Assembly (NCBI RefSeq): GCF_001310085.1
Contig: NZ_CP012643.1
Location: 4,532,001-4,596,000, forward strand
Reading direction: 5' to 3'
Length of the DNA stretch: 64,000 bases
From: Rufibacter tibetensis
GTDB lineage: Bacteria; Bacteroidota; Bacteroidia; Cytophagales; Hymenobacteraceae
Made by a program: the position numbers and the translations under genes. Positions 5,230 to 13,833 of the stretch are shown piece by piece. Within the stretch, counting starts at the first letter, position 1. Each line of letters starts with the position of its first letter. The notes under the pieces were generated by a model, which ran no database searches, had not been told where the DNA came from, and worked only from the letters and a program-made list of their open reading frames with translations.

Positions 5230-5880
5230 CTACTCTCTGGGCTTATGACGGCTTTCCAGCACCTGTACTACCTCTGCTAAGGACAAACCCGAAGCTTCTA
5301 ACAGTACAAGCAGGTGGAAGATCAAATCAGCAGCTTCGCCTTTCATAGTATCTGTTTTACCAGCTACGGCATCAATCACCACCTCTACGGCTTCTTCTCC
5401 CACTTTCTGCGCCATTTTGTTCAGGCCTTTATCAAAGAGGAAGTTGGTGTAAGAGCCTTCTATTGGGTTCTTGCGGCGTTCTTTAATGGTTTGCTCCAGT
5501 TTGGCAATGGATTGCAGAGCTTGCTCTGTTGGAGTAAAGTTCTGGAAGCTTCTCTCATGGTAAGAGTTGCTGTCTTCATTCACATCAAAACAGGTTTCTG
5601 TATTTCGGTGACATGCCGGACCAGTTGGATCAACCAGAATCAGGAGAGTGTCTTGGTCGCAGTCCAGTTCCATCTTCACCACCTTTAAGGTATTACCTGA
5701 GGTTTCTCCTTTGGTCCAGAGACGGTTTTTTGAACGGGAGAAGAAGGTTACCAAGCCTGAGGTTTGAGTATGCTGAAAGGCTTCCTCATTCATGTAGCCC
5801 AGCATCAATACTTTTCCGGTAGTGGCATTCTGGATAATAGCTGGTACCAGGCCCTCTCCTTTTTTGAAATCTATGGTCAT
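5230..5880 (-). CDS. hisIE: Bifunctional phosphoribosyl-AMP cyclohydrolase / phosphoribosyl-ATP pyrophosphatase
   Basis: 216 aa fusion catalysing steps 2 and 3 of histidine synthesis. The N-terminal cyclohydrolase domain (about 1-110) shows MLGYMNEEAF, SRSKNRLWTKGETSGN and the metal-binding DCDQDTLL and ACHRNTETCF motifs. The C-terminal pyrophosphohydrolase domain (about 120-216) shows KKVGEEAVEVV-like residues (QKVGEEAVEVVIDA) and FHLLVLL. It is the last gene of the his operon; a 96-bp gap with AAGAC-type short repeats separates it from hisF. Length and domain order are normal. Confidence 0.97.
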   Translation of the reverse strand: MTIDFKKGEGLVPAIIQNATTGKVLMLGYMNEEAFQHTQTSGLVTFFSRSKNRLWTKGETSGNTLKVVKMELDCDQDTLLILVDPTGPACHRNTETCFDVNEDSNSYHERSFQNFTPTEQALQSIAKLEQTIKERRKNPIEGSYTNFLFDKGLNKMAQKVGEEAVEVVIDAVAGKTDTMKGEAADLIFHLLVLLEASGLSLAEVVQVLESRHKPRE

Positions 5881-5976
5881 GTCTTTTATGTTAAGACATA
5901 AGATCTAAGACGCAAGACTTAAGATAACTTGAATGTATCTAAAAAGTAATGTGTCTTACATCTATTGTCTTTTGTC
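5881..5976. repeat. Short AAGAC/ATAAGA-type repeats between hisF and hisIE
   Basis: The gap holds repeated units such as TAAGACATAAGATCTAAGAC on one side and their imperfect complement (GTCTTACATCTATTGTCTTT) on the other, forming a weak imperfect inverted repeat. A related pattern occurs in the hisA-hisF gap. Function unknown. Confidence 0.5.
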
Positions 5977-6729
5977 TCAAATACGAATATCTATCTTATT
6001 CTCTGCTAAGTATTGTTTCAGCCCTGGGATAGGTACTTCCTGAAAGTGGAAGATACTTGCTGCCAGGGCTGCGTCAGCACCTACTTCAAAAACATCTAAG
6101 AAGTGTTGCTGGTTACCGGCTCCGCCTGAAGCAATCACCGGCACAATTACGTTGCGGGAGATTTCACCTGTAATATCCAAGGCGAAACCGTTTTTGGTGC
6201 CGTCGTTACTCATAGAGGTGAGCAGGATTTCTCCGGCGCCTAGCTCAACTACTTCCTTCGCCCAGTCTAAAGCCCAAAGACCAGTGTCTACGGTGCCTGC
6301 TTTGCTGAATACCTTCCAACCTTCGGGAGTGCTTTTGGTATCAATGGCTACAGTAACGCACTGGCTCCCGAAACGGCTTGCCAACTCGGTAATCAAATCC
6401 GGACGGTGAATAGCCGAGGAATTTACAGATACTTTATCGGCGCCGTTTTGCAACAGTACTTCTACATCTTCCACGGCACTAATACCGCCACCAACAGTAA
6501 ACGGAATATCTATATAACGGGCTATTTCGCGCACCAATTCACGCAGGGTTTTGCGTTTCTCATTAGTAGCGGTGATGTCCAGAAACACCAGTTCATCAGC
6601 GCCTTGTTTTGCGTATAAAGCAGCTAATTCAACTGGATCACCGGCATCACGGATATCTTCAAAACGTACCCCCTTTACGGTGCGTCCGTTTTTAATATCT
6701 AAGCAAGGGATAATTCTTTTTGTAAGCAT
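5977..6729 (-). CDS. hisF: Imidazole glycerol phosphate synthase, cyclase subunit HisF
   Basis: 250 aa (beta/alpha)8 barrel with catalytic Asp11 ([13 protein letters not shown]) and the second Asp in TVAIDTK (about residue 130). Phosphate-binding motifs TVGGGI and VIASGGAG are present. With HisH it converts PRFAR and ammonia to IGP and AICAR. It is the penultimate his gene. Unlike the rest of the operon it is set apart by gaps of 182 bp (upstream, with a REPIN-like element) and 96 bp (downstream). Confidence 0.97.
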
Positions 6730-6732
6730 TTT

Positions 6733-6800
6733 AGTAGCTCAAGATATAAGATGACAGAAATAAGACTTCTTCTTACATCTTCATCTATTCAAATCATATT
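6733..6800. repeat. AAGAT/ATAAGA-type short repeats downstream of the REPIN-like element
   Basis: AAGATATAAGATG ... CTTACATCTTCATCT forms an imperfect inverted repeat resembling the one between hisF and hisIE. Seen by eye only. Confidence 0.4.
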
Positions 6801-6812
6801 TTCGATATTACC

Positions 6813-6900
6813 GCTGGCGCGAGCGTCCCGCTCGTGCCTTCTTTGCAGGTTTGATGTAATCTTGAATGCTAGAGGACACGAGCGGGACGCTCGCGCCAGC
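6813..6900. repeat. REPIN-like element: two inverted 24-nt GC-rich arms in the hisA-hisF gap
   Basis: Arm 6813-6836 and arm 6877-6900 are perfect reverse complements over 24 nt, separated by 40 nt. Each arm contains its own small hairpin, CGAGCG-TCC-CGCTCG. This two-level palindromy and high GC in an AT-leaning intergenic gap is the usual form of REP doublets spread by REP-associated tyrosine (RAYT) transposases. No RAYT gene is in the window. In the his transcript it would form a strong hairpin inside the operon. Confidence 0.8.
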
Positions 6901-6911
6901 AACCTGACTTA

Positions 6912-7631
6912 CTAGATTACTTCTTTGGATAGATCTTCTAGGGAGATGGTTCCCTCATAGATAGCTTTACCAATGATAGACCCGTGCAAACCTGCTTCAC
7001 GCAACTGACGGACTTCCTCAATGGTCGTTACACCGCCGCTGGCAATGAACTGTAAGGTTGGAAACTGCTCCAATAAACGCTGATAAACCTCAATAGAAGA
7101 ACCTTGCAGTTTGCCGTCTTTGCTAACATCGGTACAGATGAACGTTTTTCCGCCCTTTTCAGCAAAAGAGGCTAAAAACGTCTCAAGCGTTAATTCACTT
7201 TGGTCAGCCCAGGCATTTATGGCGATATGATTATTTTTAAAATCAGCTCCAATAATAATTCTATCAGCGCCGTACTCCTTCAACCATGCTTCTACCGTTA
7301 CCGGCTCCCGAACGGCAATACTGCCTGCGGTGATTTGCTTGGCACCGGCATTAAAAGCCTGACGTACGGCTTCTGAGCTTTGTAGGCCTCCGCCGTAATC
7401 AATGTGCAGTTTGGTTTGGCTGGCGATACGCTCCAGTACAAGTAGATTCACGGGCTGTTTAGCACGGGCACCATCCAAATCGACTAGGTGCAAGCGACTT
7501 AAGCCAAGGCCTTCAAACTGTTTCGCTACTTCTACCGGGTCTGTGTGGTACGTAGTCTGCTGTGTAAAATCACCTTCGGTGAGGCGAACGCATTGTCCAC
7601 CAATAAGGTCAATAGCCGGAATAATGTCCAT
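6912..7631 (-). CDS. hisA: ProFAR isomerase HisA
   Basis: 239 aa (beta/alpha)8 barrel that isomerises ProFAR to PRFAR. Asp8 (MDIIPAIDLIGGQCVRL) and the second catalytic Asp in FICTDVSKDG are present, as are phosphate-binding IDYGGG and FIASGGVT. The start is 3 nt after the hisH stop. It is followed by the 182-bp gap with the inverted repeat before hisF. No HisA/TrpF dual-function signs are visible. Confidence 0.97.
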   Translation of the reverse strand: MDIIPAIDLIGGQCVRLTEGDFTQQTTYHTDPVEVAKQFEGLGLSRLHLVDLDGARAKQPVNLLVLERIASQTKLHIDYGGGLQSSEAVRQAFNAGAKQITAGSIAVREPVTVEAWLKEYGADRIIIGADFKNNHIAINAWADQSELTLETFLASFAEKGGKTFICTDVSKDGKLQGSSIEVYQRLLEQFPTLQFIASGGVTTIEEVRQLREAGLHGSIIGKAIYEGTISLEDLSKEVI

Positions 7632-7634
7632 GGC

Positions 7635-8216
7635 TTAGAGATTTAAGAAGTTCTGAAGAATATGTGCTCCCGCAGGACCACTTTTCTCGGTATGAAACTG
7701 TACTGCGTAGAAGTTTTTGTATTGCAAGGCGGCACTGAAAGGCTCTGGATATGAACTCTGCGCAATAGTATGCTCTGTTACCGGCGCATAGAAGCTATGC
7801 ACGAAGTAAGCGTACTCATCTTCATTAATACCAGTGAATAAATCACTTTTCAGGTGATGCAAATTGTTCCAGCCCATGTGCGGCACTTTCACAGCTGCGT
7901 CAAATTTTTTCACCGGCACCGGAATAATGCCCAGCATCACTGTATCACCTTCTTCAGAGTGCTGACAAAGCAACTGCATACCCAGGCAAACACCTAGAAA
8001 GGGTTGCGTAAGGGTAGGTAACAGCTGATCCAGGTTATTTACTTTGAGAGCACGCATTGCTGAAGAAGCTTCGCCTACACCCGGGAAAATTACCTTGTCG
8101 GCTGATTGAATCTCTTCCGCATTGGAGGTAACGGTAGCTTGTGCGCCCAATCGCTCTAAGGCGAAAAGTACACTCTGCACGTTACCTGCTTTATAATCAA
8201 CTATGACGATTTTCAT
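7635..8216 (-). CDS. hisH: Imidazole glycerol phosphate synthase, glutaminase subunit HisH
   Basis: 193 aa class I glutamine amidotransferase. Nucleophile Cys77 lies in FLGVCLGMQLL; His175 and Glu177 in QFHTEKSG complete the triad. It supplies ammonia to HisF. Its ATG overlaps the hisB stop by one base (TAATG), so translation is probably coupled. Confidence 0.97.
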   Translation of the reverse strand: MKIVIVDYKAGNVQSVLFALERLGAQATVTSNAEEIQSADKVIFPGVGEASSAMRALKVNNLDQLLPTLTQPFLGVCLGMQLLCQHSEEGDTVMLGIIPVPVKKFDAAVKVPHMGWNNLHHLKSDLFTGINEDEYAYFVHSFYAPVTEHTIAQSSYPEPFSAALQYKNFYAVQFHTEKSGPAGAHILQNFLNL

Positions 8217-9310
8217 TATAGAACGCCTTTGGTGCTTGGAATTTCCATTTTGTTCACGTCACGAACCAATGCCATCTTGATTGCCTTAGATACGGCTTTG
8301 AAGATAGCTTCAATTTTGTGGTGCTCATTCTCGCCTTCTGCCTTGATGTTGAGATTAGACTTAGACGTGTCTGAGAATGATTTGAAGAAGTGCATGAACA
8401 TCTCAGTGGGCATGTCTCCTATTTTCTCACGAGAGAATTTAGCATCCCACACTAACCATGGGCGACCAGAGAAATCAATAGCGGCGTGAACTAAGGCATC
8501 ATCCATCGGTAAAAGGAAGCCGTAACGGCTAATGCCACGTTTATCGCCAATGGCTTGCGCGAAAGCTTCACCTAAGGCTAAAGCGGTATCTTCAATGGTA
8601 TGGTGCTCATCAATGTGTAAATCACCTTTAACGTGAATGCGCATGTCTACGCCAGAGTGACGAGCTAACTGATCCAGCATGTGGTCAAAGAAACCAACTC
8701 CCGTCTGCATGTCTGATTTACCTTCACCGTCCAGGTTAATTTCTACACTGATTTGCGTCTCATTCGTGTTCCGCTGGATGGTTGCGGTTCGGGCTGGTAA
8801 ACGCAGGAAGTTATAAATGGTATCCCAGTCTGTACTGATGAAAGTAGCATCTTCATTGGCTACGTCCTGTAACAAAATGCTCTTAGAACCTAGGTTCTTC
8901 GCCATCTGCACATCTGTGAGGCGGTCGCCAATCACATAAGAGTTAGCCAAGTCATATTCGCTGGTGAGGTACTGGCCCATCATGCCTAACCGTGGTTTGC
9001 GGTTAGGGCTGTTTTCGTGCTCAAAACTGCGGTCAATGTGGATATGAGAGAATTTAATGTCCTCGCCTTCCAGAATCTCCAGCATCTTATTTTGGTATGG
9101 CCAGAATGTATTTTCAGGGTAAGAATCTGTGCCTAGCCCGTCTTGGTTGGTAACCATCACGAACTCGTAATCTAACTCTGTAAATATTTTGTAAAGGTTA
9201 CGGATGACCTTCGGGTAGAAAGAAAACTTCTCAAATGAGTCTACCTGATAATCGGTAGGTGGTTCAAGGAGAATGGTACCGTCGCGGTCTATAAATAAAA
9301 CTTTTTTCAT
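8216..9310 (-). CDS. hisB: Bifunctional histidinol-phosphatase / imidazoleglycerol-phosphate dehydratase HisB
   Basis: 364 aa fusion. The N-terminal HAD phosphatase (about 1-165) has the DxD motif FIDRDGT (Asp8, Asp10), MVTNQDG and VIGDRLTD. The C-terminal IGPD domain (about 172-364) has the metal-binding [19 protein letters not shown] and the late HHKIEA motifs. It catalyses two separate steps of the pathway. The start is 3 nt after the hisC stop. Confidence 0.97.
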
Positions 9311-9313
9311 GGT

Positions 9314-10381
9314 TTACAGAGTAGCTTCTTGGGCGGAATAAGCGTTCAGTGATTCTAAAAGATTATCGTTTTCAGCAGGCGTACCAATAGTGATGCGCAG
9401 GCAATTTGCACAGCCCGGTTGGGTAGAACGGTTACGAACTACTACTCCACGCTCTAACAAGTAGGCATATAGTTCATTGGCGTTATGCACCTGTACCAGC
9501 ACAAAATTGGCATCTGACGGGTACACTTTCTCAATCAAAGGAAGTGCTTCAAAAGCTTCGACTAAACGAGTACGTTCTTTGATGATAACTTGTAGCATAT
9601 CCTGCAATTGTGCAGTTTTATCTAAAGCAGCACTTACCAGCTCCTGCGTTACAACGTTGATATTATAAGGTGGTTTAATTTTGTTCAGATAGCCAATGAT
9701 TTCTGGCGAAGCGAAGGCCATTCCCAAACGTAGACCGGCCATTCCCCACGCTTTAGAAAGCGTCTGCATCACCAGCAGGTTTGGGAACTCATCTAAACGG
9801 GTACTCCAGCTAGGAATATCAGTGAAGTCAATGTATGCTTCATCCACTACTACCAATCCGTTGAAAGAACGGATAAGCTTCTCTACCGTAGCAGGCTCCA
9901 GAATATTTCCGGTTGGGTTATTTGGCGAACACAGGAAAAGAATCTTGGTGCTCTCAGTTTGTTTTTCGGCTATTTTCTCAAAAACAGGCTGAAAGTGCTC
10001 ATCTAAAGGTACGCGCTGAATGCCCACATTATGGATGTTAGCACTTACCTCATACATACCATACGTGGGTGGTAATAACAAAACTTCATTACGACCCGGC
10101 TCACACACTAGACGCATCAACAAGTCAATGGCTTCGTCTGAACCGTTGCCTATGAAGATTTGCTCTGGCCGTATGCCTTTCAGCTTTGACAGTTTTTCTT
10201 TGATGGTTTTCTGGTATGGGTCTGGGTAGCGGTTATAATCTACGCCACCAGCCAGACTGCCCAGGTTATTCTCGTTTGCGTCCAGATAGACGCTGGCTTC
10301 GCCTTCAAACTCATCACGCGCCGATGAATACGGCTTCAGTGATTTCAGGTGCGGACGAATGAAATTATCTATTGAAAACAT
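9314..10381 (-). CDS. hisC: Histidinol-phosphate aminotransferase
   Basis: 355 aa fold-type I PLP aminotransferase. LDANENNLG near the N-terminus, SPNNPTGN, VVDEAYIDF and the PLP lysine Lys210 in TLSKAWGMAGLRLG are all present. It transfers an amino group from glutamate to imidazole acetol phosphate. It lies 27 nt after hisD and 3 nt before hisB. Confidence 0.96.
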   Translation of the reverse strand: MFSIDNFIRPHLKSLKPYSSARDEFEGEASVYLDANENNLGSLAGGVDYNRYPDPYQKTIKEKLSKLKGIRPEQIFIGNGSDEAIDLLMRLVCEPGRNEVLLLPPTYGMYEVSANIHNVGIQRVPLDEHFQPVFEKIAEKQTESTKILFLCSPNNPTGNILEPATVEKLIRSFNGLVVVDEAYIDFTDIPSWSTRLDEFPNLLVMQTLSKAWGMAGLRLGMAFASPEIIGYLNKIKPPYNINVVTQELVSAALDKTAQLQDMLQVIIKERTRLVEAFEALPLIEKVYPSDANFVLVQVHNANELYAYLLERGVVVRNRSTQPGCANCLRITIGTPAENDNLLESLNAYSAQEATL

Positions 10382-10408
10382 GTTTGTTCCTTCAGTTAAT
10401 AAGTACTG

Positions 10409-11689
10409 TTATTTCTTGGTTAGTCTAATGGTCACCGCATTTTTATGGGCATGTAACCCTTCTGCCTCGGCCATTATTTCCACCGCAGGACCAATGCGCT
10501 CTAAACTTTCACGGGTCAGTTGCTGGAATGTAATCTTCTTCACGAAACTATCCAGGGAAACACCGCTGTAATTGCGGGCATATCCATTGGTAGGTAGCGT
10601 GTGATTAGTTCCTGAAGCATAGTCACCTACAGATTCTGGGCTAAAGTGGCCCATGAAGACAGAACCTGCCTGAGTTACCTGTCCAGCCAATACTTCTGGT
10701 GCATCCACAGAAAGGATTAGGTGCTCCGGTGCATAGAGATTTGAAAAAGCTAAAGCATCTTCCAACGTGCTTAAAACCACACCAATGCTGTTGTTCAATG
10801 CTTGTTCCGCCACCGTCTGACGAGGTAATTTAGCAACCTGATCCACTACCGCAGCCTGCACGTTTTTGAGCAGATTTTCAGAATTCGAGACAAAAACTAC
10901 CTGTGAGTCTGGGCCGTGTTCTGCCTGTGAAAGCAGATCAGCCGCCACGAAATCTGCATCAGCAGAATCATCGGCAATCACCAATACTTCCGATGGGCCA
11001 GCTGGCATATCAATGGCTACTCCCATTTGAGTCACCATTTGCTTAGCTGCAGTTACGTACTGGTTGCCCGGACCAAAGATTTTATCAACTGCCGGAACAG
11101 TCTGGGTGCCAAATGCCATAGCTGCGATGGCTTGTGCCCCGCCTGCCTTTAAGATGCGTTTGATACCTAATTTATTTGCAGTATAGAGAATGGTAGCATT
11201 AATAGAGCCATCTGCGCTTGGTGGTGTAGCCAGAATGATCTCACGGCAACCTGCAATCTGGGCAGGTACACCCAACATGAGCAGCGTAGAGAACAAAGGA
11301 GCAGAACCGCCCGGTATGTACAAACCCACCTTCTGGATACCTACTGACTTTCTCCAGCAGGTAACACCTGACATGGTCTCAACCCGTTGTACCGGTTCAC
11401 GCTGCGCTTCATGAAAACGCATTATGTTGCTGTAGGCTAACTCAATTGCTTCTTTCAGCTCTTCAGAAACTTGCGGAATAGCAGCGGCAACTTCCTCGTC
11501 GGTTACCCATACACTTTGCAGCGCTGCCTTGTCAAATTTAGCGGCTAACTCAATCAGAGCTGCATCGCCACTTTGCTGTACCAGATCAAAAGTTTGCTGC
11601 ACCCCTGCCCGCAACTGATCCAGTTTCTGTACTGGTCTCTGCGTTAAGGCTGCCCATTCCTCTTGTTTTGGATATAGATAGGTCTTCAT
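10409..11689 (-). CDS. hisD: Histidinol dehydrogenase
   Basis: 426 aa zinc enzyme for the last two NAD-dependent steps to histidine. Family signatures include GLYIPGGSAPLFSTLLM, the segment KIFGPGNQYVTAAKQ, PAGPSEVLVIAD, AEHGPDSQ and FMGHFSPESVGDYASGTNHTLPT. I place the start at the ATG at 11689, one base after the hisG stop. An in-frame TTG three codons earlier would overlap hisG and has no advantage. Confidence 0.96.
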   Translation of the reverse strand: MKTYLYPKQEEWAALTQRPVQKLDQLRAGVQQTFDLVQQSGDAALIELAAKFDKAALQSVWVTDEEVAAAIPQVSEELKEAIELAYSNIMRFHEAQREPVQRVETMSGVTCWRKSVGIQKVGLYIPGGSAPLFSTLLMLGVPAQIAGCREIILATPPSADGSINATILYTANKLGIKRILKAGGAQAIAAMAFGTQTVPAVDKIFGPGNQYVTAAKQMVTQMGVAIDMPAGPSEVLVIADDSADADFVAADLLSQAEHGPDSQVVFVSNSENLLKNVQAAVVDQVAKLPRQTVAEQALNNSIGVVLSTLEDALAFSNLYAPEHLILSVDAPEVLAGQVTQAGSVFMGHFSPESVGDYASGTNHTLPTNGYARNYSGVSLDSFVKKITFQQLTRESLERIGPAVEIMAEAEGLHAHKNAVTIRLTKK

Positions 11690-11690
11690 C

Positions 11691-12542
11691 TTACCCAATC
11701 ATCTTTTCAATAGGTACCACCAGAATACCTTCTGCGCCGGCTTCTTTCAGCTTCTGGATGATATCCCAGAAATCATCTTCATTCACTACAGAGTGTAAAG
11801 AACTCCAGCCTTCTTCGGCCAATGGAATAACGGTAGGAGATTTGATGCCTGGTAACAGATTTTTAATTTCAGAAATCGCGTCATTTGGGGCATTTAACAC
11901 CACGTACTTTGACTTCTGGGCTTTCTGCACCGCCTCCATTCTGAACAAGAGTTGCTGCAGTAACCTGTTCTTCTCAGGATCTAGATTTTTATTAGCGATG
12001 AGGACTGCTTCAGATTTAAATACTGTTTCTACTTCACGCAGACCATTGCTGATCAAGGTTGATCCAGAAGAAACAATGTCACATACAGCATCTGCCAATC
12101 CTATGCTAGGCGCAATCTCTACTGAACCACTAATGGTATGGATATCGGCTTGAACACCTTTAGAGGTTAAAAACTCCTGTAAAAGGTTGGGGTATGAAGT
12201 AGCAATGCTTTTACCTTTTAAAGTGGTCACGTCCTGGTAGGTATCTCCTTTAGAGACAGCCAAAGACAAACGGCACTTGCTGAAGCCAAGGGTCTTGACT
12301 GTTAACTCCTGCAATCCTTCCTCTACCAGCACATTCTGACCTACAATGCCAATATCAGCCACTCCGTCGGCTACATAGCCAGGAATGTCATCATCACGGA
12401 GGAACAAAATTTCAAGAGGGAAATTGGTGGCTTCGGTTTTAAGTTTAGAAGAAGCACTGATAAAAGAAATGCCGCACTCTCTAATGAGTTTCAAAGAATC
12501 ATCAGAAAGGCGCCCGGACTTTTGAATGGCTAACCGGATCAT
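11691..12542 (-). CDS. hisG: ATP phosphoribosyltransferase, long form HisG
   Basis: 283 aa, the length of the long HisG form that carries a C-terminal ACT-like regulatory domain (about 210-283) and does not need HisZ. Starts MIRLAIQKSGRLSDDSL; VADIGIVGQNVL and SGSVEIAPSIGLADAVCDIVSSG (split here as SGSVEIAPS and ADAVCDIVSSG) are typical. It commits ATP and PRPP to histidine synthesis, and the ACT-like domain normally binds histidine for feedback inhibition. As first gene of the operon it is preceded by a leader-peptide region. Confidence 0.96.
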   Translation of the reverse strand: MIRLAIQKSGRLSDDSLKLIRECGISFISASSKLKTEATNFPLEILFLRDDDIPGYVADGVADIGIVGQNVLVEEGLQELTVKTLGFSKCRLSLAVSKGDTYQDVTTLKGKSIATSYPNLLQEFLTSKGVQADIHTISGSVEIAPSIGLADAVCDIVSSGSTLISNGLREVETVFKSEAVLIANKNLDPEKNRLLQQLLFRMEAVQKAQKSKYVVLNAPNDAISEIKNLLPGIKSPTVIPLAEEGWSSLHSVVNEDDFWDIIQKLKEAGAEGILVVPIEKMIG

Positions 12543-12579
12543 ATAAATAAGTAAAGCTTTATCAAGCGTGAATTGGGAA

Positions 12580-12587
12580 CAAATATA
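12580..12587 (-). promoter_or_regulatory. Possible second promoter box (TATATTTG) close to hisG
   Basis: Perfect TAnnTTTG on the minus strand, 38 bp before the hisG ATG and downstream of the leader peptide. No TTG at the proper -33 distance. If active it would bypass the leader. Confidence 0.35.
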
Positions 12588-12595
12588 GTAGCTGA

Positions 12596-12643
12596 ATCGC
12601 TTAACTCTTAGTGAAGCGATGGCTTATATGGGGCCCAGCCCCA
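12596..12643 (-). promoter_or_regulatory. Hairpins between his leader and hisG (possible attenuator)
   Basis: Two stems in the leader transcript: TGGGGC/GCCCCA (12629-12643, 6 bp) and ATCGCTT/AAGCGAT (12596-12620, 7 bp, 11-nt loop). Neither is followed by a clean U-run, so a classical Rho-independent attenuator is not certain. Confidence 0.4.
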
Positions 12644-12665
12644 GTTAGGACGATATGATGTAAAT

Positions 12666-12683
12666 ATTCCTCCTAGGAGGAAT
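12666..12683. repeat. 18-bp perfect palindrome over the his leader stop codon
   Basis: ATTCCTCCTAGGAGGAAT is its own reverse complement. In RNA it makes a 7-bp stem with a CUAG loop, containing the leader's UAG stop. A ribosome stalled on the preceding His codons would cover it. Confidence 0.75.
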
Positions 12684-12762
12684 GATGAAAATGATGGCAA
12701 TGCACCCCGTGTACCGCGATTGCGGTGGTAGGAAGGGTAATATAATAGTAGGTGCAGCTCAT
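12673..12762 (-). CDS. hisL: Histidine leader peptide of the his operon
   Basis: A 29-codon frame from ATG (12762-12760) to TAG (12675-12673). The first part reads MSCTYYYITLPTTAIAV; the end reads HGVHCHHFHHSS. Six of the last twelve residues are histidine, each read by CAT or CAC, directly before the stop and 130 bp before hisG. This is the layout of a his attenuation leader: shortage of charged tRNA-His stalls the ribosome on the His run and changes downstream RNA folding. The promoter box at 12772-12779 places transcription start only a few bases before the ATG, so the mRNA would be almost leaderless. A shorter version starting at an internal GTG (12705) is possible. Confidence 0.8.
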   Translation of the reverse strand: MSCTYYYITLPTTAIAVHGVHCHHFHHSS

Positions 12763-12771
12763 ATAATAGGT

Positions 12772-12800
12772 CAAAGGTAGTACGTTCTGTATATAATCAA
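12772..12800 (-). promoter_or_regulatory. his operon promoter
   Basis: Minus-strand TTG (12800-12798), 18-bp spacer, TACCTTTG (12779-12772). Fits the Bacteroidota promoter pattern TTG-N19-TAnnTTTG with a spacer one base short, immediately upstream of the histidine leader peptide. Confidence 0.6.
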
Positions 12801-12840
12801 ACAAGATTAAGGGTGTTTTTGATTTGTTTAACTAATTTTA

Positions 12841-12870
12841 TTGAACCATATTTGAATTATTATACACTTG
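12841..12870 (+). promoter_or_regulatory. Promoter for the DUF2911 gene
   Basis: TTG (12841-12843), 19-bp spacer, TACACTTG (12863-12870; one mismatch to TAnnTTTG). Lies 90 bp before the ATG at 12961 and argues against an upstream TTG start at 12868. Confidence 0.55.
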
Positions 12871-12960
12871 CAAGGAATATTCCTGTATTATACTTCCGCT
12901 AAACAACCAATTGATTTGAAGGCGCTTCTATTTGTAGCTCGTACATATACACATCGTTTC

Positions 12961-13833
12961 ATGAATAAAATAACAATTTCCTTTATACTCGTTTTACTAT
13001 CTATTACTGTTCGTGCTCAGAACTTATTGAAGTTGCCACAGGTAAGTCCCAGGGCAGTTTTGAATTACACCGTTGGAGTTACTGACATTACGATCAACTA
13101 TGGAGCACCAGGGGTTAAAAACAGAGCAGTATGGGGAAAACTGGTTCCATACGGACAGGTTTGGAGAGCGGGGGCTAATGAAGCCACTACTATCAAATTC
13201 AGCACTGATGTTCGGATTACCCAAGAGAAAATTCCGGCTGGTACGTACACCCTTTATGTTTTACCCGTAGATTCTTCTAATTGGACCTTTATCTTAAGCA
13301 AACAGAAAGGACTCTGGGGAACTGAAGGGTATGATTCCAAACAAGACTTAATCCGGTTGCCCTTCAGCCCACAGCCTGCTCCTTTTCATGAAACCCTTCA
13401 ATACACTATTCAGGATATTACCCCTAATGGCGGAAGATTGACTTTAAATTGGGCAGATAAACAATTGGCAGTGCCTATTAGAGTTGAGTCGCACAAGGAG
13501 ACCATGAACTTGATCAAGGAGTCCCTGCAGAAGTCTCAACCTACAGATTGGATGGTGTACGCCCAGGCTGTTAACTATTTGATACAGCAGAACCAAGACC
13601 ATGAGCAGGCCTTACAATGGGTGAACAAATCCATTACTATTGAAGAGAATTTTTATAATATTTGGCTTAAAGCAAAGCTGTTGGCACAGAAAAATGAATA
13701 TGCCGAAGCCTTAGAATTAAACAAGAAAGCTCAAAAACTTGGAAAAAAGTCGTTGGAATCTTACCAGACTTATGCCAACGAGATTGAAGATGCAGCTGTT
13801 CTTTGGAAAGAAAAACGCTTCACCGTTAATTAA
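12961..13833 (+). CDS. DUF2911 family secreted protein with TPR-like C-terminus
   Basis: 290 aa from the ATG at 12961, which directly begins a signal peptide (MNKITISFILVLLSITVRAQ). The DUF2911 domain (about 25-180) shows VTDITINYGAPGVKNR, VWGKLVPYGQVWRAGANEA, IPAGTYTLYVLP and WTFILSK. The remaining 110 residues look like two or three helical TPR-type units (ALQWVNKSITIEENF, AEALELNKKAQKLG). DUF2911 proteins are common in Bacteroidota and are exported; the biochemical role is unknown to me. A terminator at 13866-13907 follows. Confidence 0.9.
   Translation: MNKITISFILVLLSITVRAQNLLKLPQVSPRAVLNYTVGVTDITINYGAPGVKNRAVWGKLVPYGQVWRAGANEATTIKFSTDVRITQEKIPAGTYTLYVLPVDSSNWTFILSKQKGLWGTEGYDSKQDLIRLPFSPQPAPFHETLQYTIQDITPNGGRLTLNWADKQLAVPIRVESHKETMNLIKESLQKSQPTDWMVYAQAVNYLIQQNQDHEQALQWVNKSITIEENFYNIWLKAKLLAQKNEYAEALELNKKAQKLGKKSLESYQTYANEIEDAAVLWKEKRFTVN

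Follow-up and report, generated by a model that had tools for sequence, protein, structure and literature searches.

In enterobacteria, the his leader (hisL; Rfam HIS_leader) places a run of His codons in a short open reading frame (ORF) that precedes the his operon, and hairpins lie between this ORF and the first gene. The his operon examined here, from a window of 64,000 nucleotides (the whole stretch of DNA analysed) of Rufibacter or its GTDB equivalent (Hymenobacteraceae; Bacteroidota), is preceded by the same arrangement. Unlike hisL, however, the Rufibacter leader is predicted to have nearly no 5'UTR, its stop codon lies in a hairpin loop, it lacks a strong U-tract, and the leader region gave no match in an Rfam covariance-model search that included the his leader family. 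The mycobacterial polycysteine attenuators resemble it in another respect, since they too have short leaderless ORFs in which the codon for the sensed amino acid recurs, but they sense cysteine and belong to actinobacteria. Some attenuators in Bacteroidetes/Chlorobi were reportedly predicted by Vitreschak et al. in 2004, and our locus agrees with those predictions in the kind of regulation and in the phylum.

An excerpt of PMC7298713 describes the trpL of Sinorhizobium meliloti as a leaderless attenuator ORF with a 0-nt leader; as predicted for Rufibacter, the attenuator peptide ORF starts at the 5' end of the transcript, but the phylum is another, the amino acid is tryptophan, and 0 nt are reported there against about 5 nt predicted here. 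In the excerpted part of PMC8305728, which deals with his genes in this superphylum, attenuation is mentioned for enterobacteria only. A full-text literature search, compared at the level of titles and abstract beginnings and covering neither the 2004 survey nor that of 2010 (Lopatovskaya et al.), returned no description of a near-leaderless start combined with the hairpin (hairpin A) and 14-nt element reported below. We propose, with a probability of roughly 0.83, that the his operon is controlled here by a histidine-responsive attenuator of the leader-peptide type whose leader ORF is nearly leaderless.

The His-rich leader ORF and its conservation

The window carries a complete minus-strand operon (12542-5230) in the order hisG-hisD-hisC-hisB-hisH-hisA-hisF-hisIE, headed by the leader (Table 1). 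The leader frame consists of 29 codons and a TAG stop, its C-terminal end is HGVHCHHFHHSS, and its stop lies 130 nt from the start of hisG. A longer version of the ORF can be read from a TTG at 12804, but because this TTG sits upstream of the -7 promoter box, the reasonable choice of start codon is the ATG at 12762. On the other side of the leader, a divergent ORF of 321 amino acids (12868-13833, plus strand) with a signal-like start was observed, and an NCBIfam search of it at 1e-20 gave no match.

Table 1 Features of the his leader region and operon in the window
Feature	Position	Strand	Basis or remark
TTTG, probable -33 promoter element	12798..12801	-	18 nt 5' of the -7 box; sequence
TACCTTTG, Bacteroidota -7 box (TAnnTTTG)	12772..12779	-	identical at all 16 Rufibacter-clade loci
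Leader peptide ORF, MSCTYYYITLPTTAIAVHGVHCHHFHHSS-stop	12673..12762	-	6 of the last 13 codons are His; frame, family conservation, codon pattern
Hairpin A, ATTCCTC-CTAG-GAGGAAT	12666..12683	-	TAG stop in loop; 5' arm overlaps last His codon
Spacer of 14 nt ending CATATC, then conserved G (ATATnG)	12651..12665	-	spacing in 47/48 loci with the motif
Overlapping alternative stems	12630..12651	-	GTCC (12651-12648):GGGC (12641-12638); GGGGC (12642-12638):GCCCC (12634-12630)
Two-tier hairpin before hisG	12590..12624	-	folds in 16/16; outer stems differ but are complementary
U-rich tail	12576..12589	-	7-9 T among the 12 nt that follow the hairpin region, 16/16; includes TATATTTG
hisG, start of his operon	11691..12542	-	TIGR00070 and TIGR03455, both above cut-off
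hisD, hisC, hisB, hisH, hisA, hisF, hisIE	5230..11698	-	NCBIfam equivalogs above cut-off and ORF listing

Relatives were then scored for a leader, defined as a short ORF with at least 4 His in 12 codons located no more than 400 nt upstream of hisG. The family sample comprised 70 upstream regions taken from 147 genomes with a match. The phylum sample comprised 103 genomes with a hisG match, two of which (G000 and G020) are family members; 60 loci were retrieved and 58 used, as anchoring to hisG failed for two of the 130 loci (L129 and L130), and the remaining 41 genomes, about 26-36% identical, stand outside the 58-locus count. A His-rich short ORF preceded hisG in 70/70 family loci versus 1/70 shuffles, and in 50/58 wider Bacteroidota loci versus 0/58 shuffles; three of the eight wider-phylum misses (L073, L084 and L087) still carry a leader with three His. 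When upstream regions of other long ORFs in the same genome served as controls, only 2 of 204 scored as His-rich. Furthermore, the leader was present at 79 of 80 loci from named GTDB species, which partly overlap the other samples. All 16 Rufibacter-clade genomes share the layout, including the His run; the only indel within their leader ORFs is one of 3 nt in L005, and three of them (L003, L005 and L015) have lost the stop, so that their ORF closes three codons later, just beyond the hairpin.

The substitution pattern was examined in 15 of the 16 clade loci, L005 being excluded for its 3-nt insertion. In codons 17-29, variable columns numbered 3, 3 and 8 of 13 at codon positions 1, 2 and 3, and codons 2-16 had no third-position bias. 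This pattern, together with the shuffle and upstream controls, argues against a chance ORF without function, a reading in whose favour we found nothing and whose probability we consider negligible. The ORF might alternatively encode a peptide that is itself functional, for instance in metal binding through its His residues, and does not serve as a codon sensor; the conserved HHSS ending and aromatic residue would agree with this. However, the rest of the peptide varies freely, the spacing and number of His differ between genera, HHSS maps onto a hairpin arm, and the location is always at hisG, so that we regard such a function as very improbable.

The locus thus has a run of codons for the regulated amino acid in a short ORF before a biosynthetic operon, the mark of an amino-acid attenuator. 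The His-rich peptide is very probably the histidine sensor of the attenuator, and histidine attenuation at the his operon is well supported as a prediction from sequence comparison. An earlier note on this DNA had described a 29-codon His-rich frame ending 130 bp before hisG, and coordinates, ending and distance were all found as described; the His codons, whose conservation it had left to comparison, are kept in all 70 family loci. Its further assertion of strong evidence for attenuation in Bacteroidota was overstated for a single sequence, but it holds after the comparison with relatives.

Promoter box and the predicted 5' end of the leader transcript

The Bacteroidota -7 box has the consensus TAnnTTTG. 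TACCTTTG ends 9 nt before the leader ATG, and this spacing is 9-10 nt in 16/16 Rufibacter-clade genomes. Upstream of it, TTTG is a fair candidate for the -33 element, and most of the 16 clade sequences, inspected by eye, have TTG or TTTG there. In section 8 of PMC7366714, as excerpted, the -7/-33 promoter layout is described with the -7 element centred at -7; because the box ends 9 nt before the ATG, the 5'UTR of the leader would be about 5 nt. For comparison, the same paper gives about 3.7% of the 5'UTRs of B. thetaiotaomicron as shorter than 10 nt, and 23 nt for most mRNAs.

The exact box was present in 65 of the 70 family loci and was no more than 11 nt away from the leader ATG in 51, namely in 16/16 of the Rufibacter clade, 20/20 of Pontibacter, 8/8 of Adhaeribacter, 7/14 of Hymenobacter, and 0/7 of the group g5. 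Ordinary genes were surveyed in 464 kb of the genome, where 48 of 296 long ORFs had TAnnTTTG near the start; the median distance from box to ATG was 31 nt, and it was 11 nt or less in 6 of the 48 and in none of the 14 that also had TTG at -33. Short spacing was accordingly more frequent in his leaders (51/65) than in genes (6/48), with a Fisher p of about 1e-12 for sequences that are not independent of one another. Among the 19 family loci without an exact box within 11 nt, five had no exact TAnnTTTG and 14 had it at 16-25 nt, the latter being g5 (19-25 nt) and half of Hymenobacter. Box-to-leader distances in Flavobacteria-like relatives were commonly 17-35 nt. The near-leaderless form, with its 5' end predicted from box position and spacing, is therefore well supported, and appears typical of the family without being universal.

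Five of the ten distant loci without a usable ATG (L111, L119 and L124-L126) showed, by eye, TAnnTTTG followed after 4 nt by GTG and a His run. If this GTG is used, these leaders would be truly leaderless with a non-ATG start.

Another box, TATATTTG at 12587-12580, also fits TAnnTTTG and lies 37 nt from the hisG ATG, close to the usual 31 nt. If hisG were mainly transcribed from this second promoter, the His-rich ORF would lie upstream of the functional transcript. By eye, TAnnTTTG is found there in 12 of 16 relatives, but it is lost in the other four (L003, L011, L014 and L015) while the U-richness stays, and the window has no TTG at -33. We rejected it as the main start on these two grounds; moreover, it would leave the conservation of the upstream box, the ORF and the hairpins unexplained, and we judge it improbable. 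Since it is kept in 12/16 only, lacks a -33 TTG and follows a conserved hairpin, the segment reads better as a U-rich tail. As to the earlier note, its inference of a nearly leaderless leader from the box at 12772-12779 was borne out as far as the box and its fixed spacing go, the 5' end itself being a prediction, and a start at the downstream box alone, which it had named as the contrary case, is disfavoured by the sequence, in which the upstream box is invariant in 16/16.

Hairpin A, the downstream stems and the proposed control of transcription

Hairpin A (ATTCCTC-loop-GAGGAAT) overlaps the last His codon and HHSS, with the stop codon inside or just after it. It is kept in 16/16 Rufibacter-clade loci and also in Pontibacter and part of Hymenobacter; covariation analysis of the 16 clade loci gave it no support, the hairpin being nearly invariant. 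At the 48 loci with the ATATnG motif, from Rufibacter, Pontibacter and part of Hymenobacter, the distance from hairpin A to the G was exactly 14 nt in 46 by script; L057, with two G in the motif, also has 14 nt on inspection, and L058 has 15 nt. Because loops (4-6 nt) and stop positions vary across these loci, the hairpin, rather than the stop codon, is the reference point of the distance. In 68 of 120 family genomes the pattern of the whole element had exactly one match, adjoining hisG wherever the matches were compared with the hisG search, and the reversed pattern had 0 matches. The three Rufibacter-clade genomes without a match carry GGGGAA in place of GAGGAA. Under the strict pattern, hairpin and 14-nt element were found at 52 of the 80 named GTDB-species loci. 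Hairpin A is probably an antiterminator or a pause hairpin.

A different his-leader architecture was observed upstream of hisG in part of Hymenobacter (L042, L045, L046, L048, L049, L068 and L069), with GC-rich stems, a near-leaderless start and no hairpin A.

Between this element and hisG, the two alternative stems are mutually exclusive and both can pair in 16/16 clade loci. The last hairpin is maintained by complementary outer stems such as AGC/GCT, AACC/GGTT, TACC/GGTA, CCAG/CTGG, CACC/GGTG and ATCTGA/TCAGAT. By analogy with relatives, this two-tier hairpin is probably the terminator. Its U-tract is weak for that role: 4 of 16 clade loci passed a strict script, and a consensus terminator scan of the window detected no terminator. 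We also considered a translated second ORF at 12657-12630, which was rejected since L012 and L013 have a 1-nt deletion that interrupts its codon-like wobble pattern.

Equilibrium folding with the ribosome placed at the first His versus at the stop revealed no consistent switch in the downstream stems; hairpin A had a probability of 0.72-1.0 in the former state and, by construction, 0 in the latter. Helix scans of the hairpin A 3' arm, or of the GGGGCTGGG segment, against the 5' arm of the last hairpin found no clade-wide pairing. A long-range stem, GGGGT:GCYCC (alignment columns 77-81 with 151-155), was 97.5% paired, and covariation of the structure holding it was no better than in shuffles.

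The link between hairpin A and termination is more direct in relatives. In three Adhaeribacter loci (L033, L034 and L051), the 3' arm of hairpin A doubles, by eye, as the 5' arm of a strong terminator with a terminal T run; because the arm is shared, hairpin A would act there as an antiterminator. Such strand-sharing was seen at these three and at many distant loci, whereas ribosome-position folding revealed no link between the stems in the window and the last hairpin. In other Bacteroidota, Flavobacteria-like loci among them, a U-tract terminator followed 34 of 50 His leaders by script, 29 of them with stems at -12 kcal/mol or better.

These results bear on a rival explanation, in which a translated leader senses histidine but control is exerted by Rho- or pause-dependent elongation (or at hisG translation), the two-tier hairpin being a processing or stability element. 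The weak U-tract, the folding without a switch, and the ATATnG sequence kept at a fixed distance from hairpin A all point this way; the like leaders that precede U-tract terminators in Adhaeribacter and most other Bacteroidota sampled point against it. We consider this explanation possible but rather unlikely.

Under attenuation as we propose it, transcription would start about 5 nt before the AUG, and a ribosome would load at the 5' end once it is exposed, with no Shine-Dalgarno region; in Bacteroidota, Shine-Dalgarno signals are little used. If charged tRNA-His runs short, the ribosome would stall early in HGVHCHHFHH and hairpin A would form behind RNA polymerase. With ample histidine, the ribosome would reach the stop in the loop of hairpin A and open it. 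The state of hairpin A would then decide between read-through by RNA polymerase and a stop at the two-tier hairpin that precedes hisG. This ribosome-state logic is carried over to Rufibacter from Adhaeribacter and the other Bacteroidota loci where leaders precede terminators, and the ribosome states and termination at the last hairpin are accordingly put forward by analogy. For the last step in the Rufibacter clade, our favoured guess is a hairpin-dependent pause at ATATnG.

That a regulatory ORF stays at the predicted 5' end across the family points to selection for immediate ribosome loading in a setting in which the sensor must not lag behind RNA polymerase. If the proposal is true, a function would be assigned to the conserved element upstream of hisG, and such leaders would offer simple reporters for transcription-translation coupling in a phylum in which such coupling has received little study. 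Quite tentatively, hairpin A, the 14-nt spacer and ATATnG might form a new type of pause or antitermination element for RNA polymerase that is gated by the ribosome, coupling a 5'-end-loaded ribosome to the polymerase without a strong-U-tract terminator, as part of a wider Bacteroidota habit of leaderless or near-leaderless amino-acid sensors (his, trp).

Other amino-acid leaders in the genome

Two tandem Trp leaders, each with WW, were observed at L157:5200-5253 and L157:5359-5418, before a trpE-like gene at L157:5508; on the contig they lie at about 4260200-4260420 (G000:C1). The best NCBIfam model for this gene was trpE, below the cut-off. The second leader, MKQVISTGMNCWWHQSEDS, precedes a T7 terminator. 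A short ORF rich in Ile/Leu/Val, MRHRFIISILVIRPLPQGG (L156:10920-10979), was also found before ilvD (L156:11075); it is followed by a textbook T7 terminator and is likely, judging from its sequence, to be an ilv attenuator. The RNA polymerase of this host thus seems to use ordinary U-tract attenuators, and the weak tail of the his element stands out because the Trp and Ile/Leu/Val leaders of the same genome have U-tract terminators. The first Trp leader, MNKTQFTHNAWWHTHQN, starts 4 nt after a TAnnTTTG box, and both Trp leaders and the 4-nt distance are kept in 15/15 genus genomes with a trpE-like gene (16 searched).
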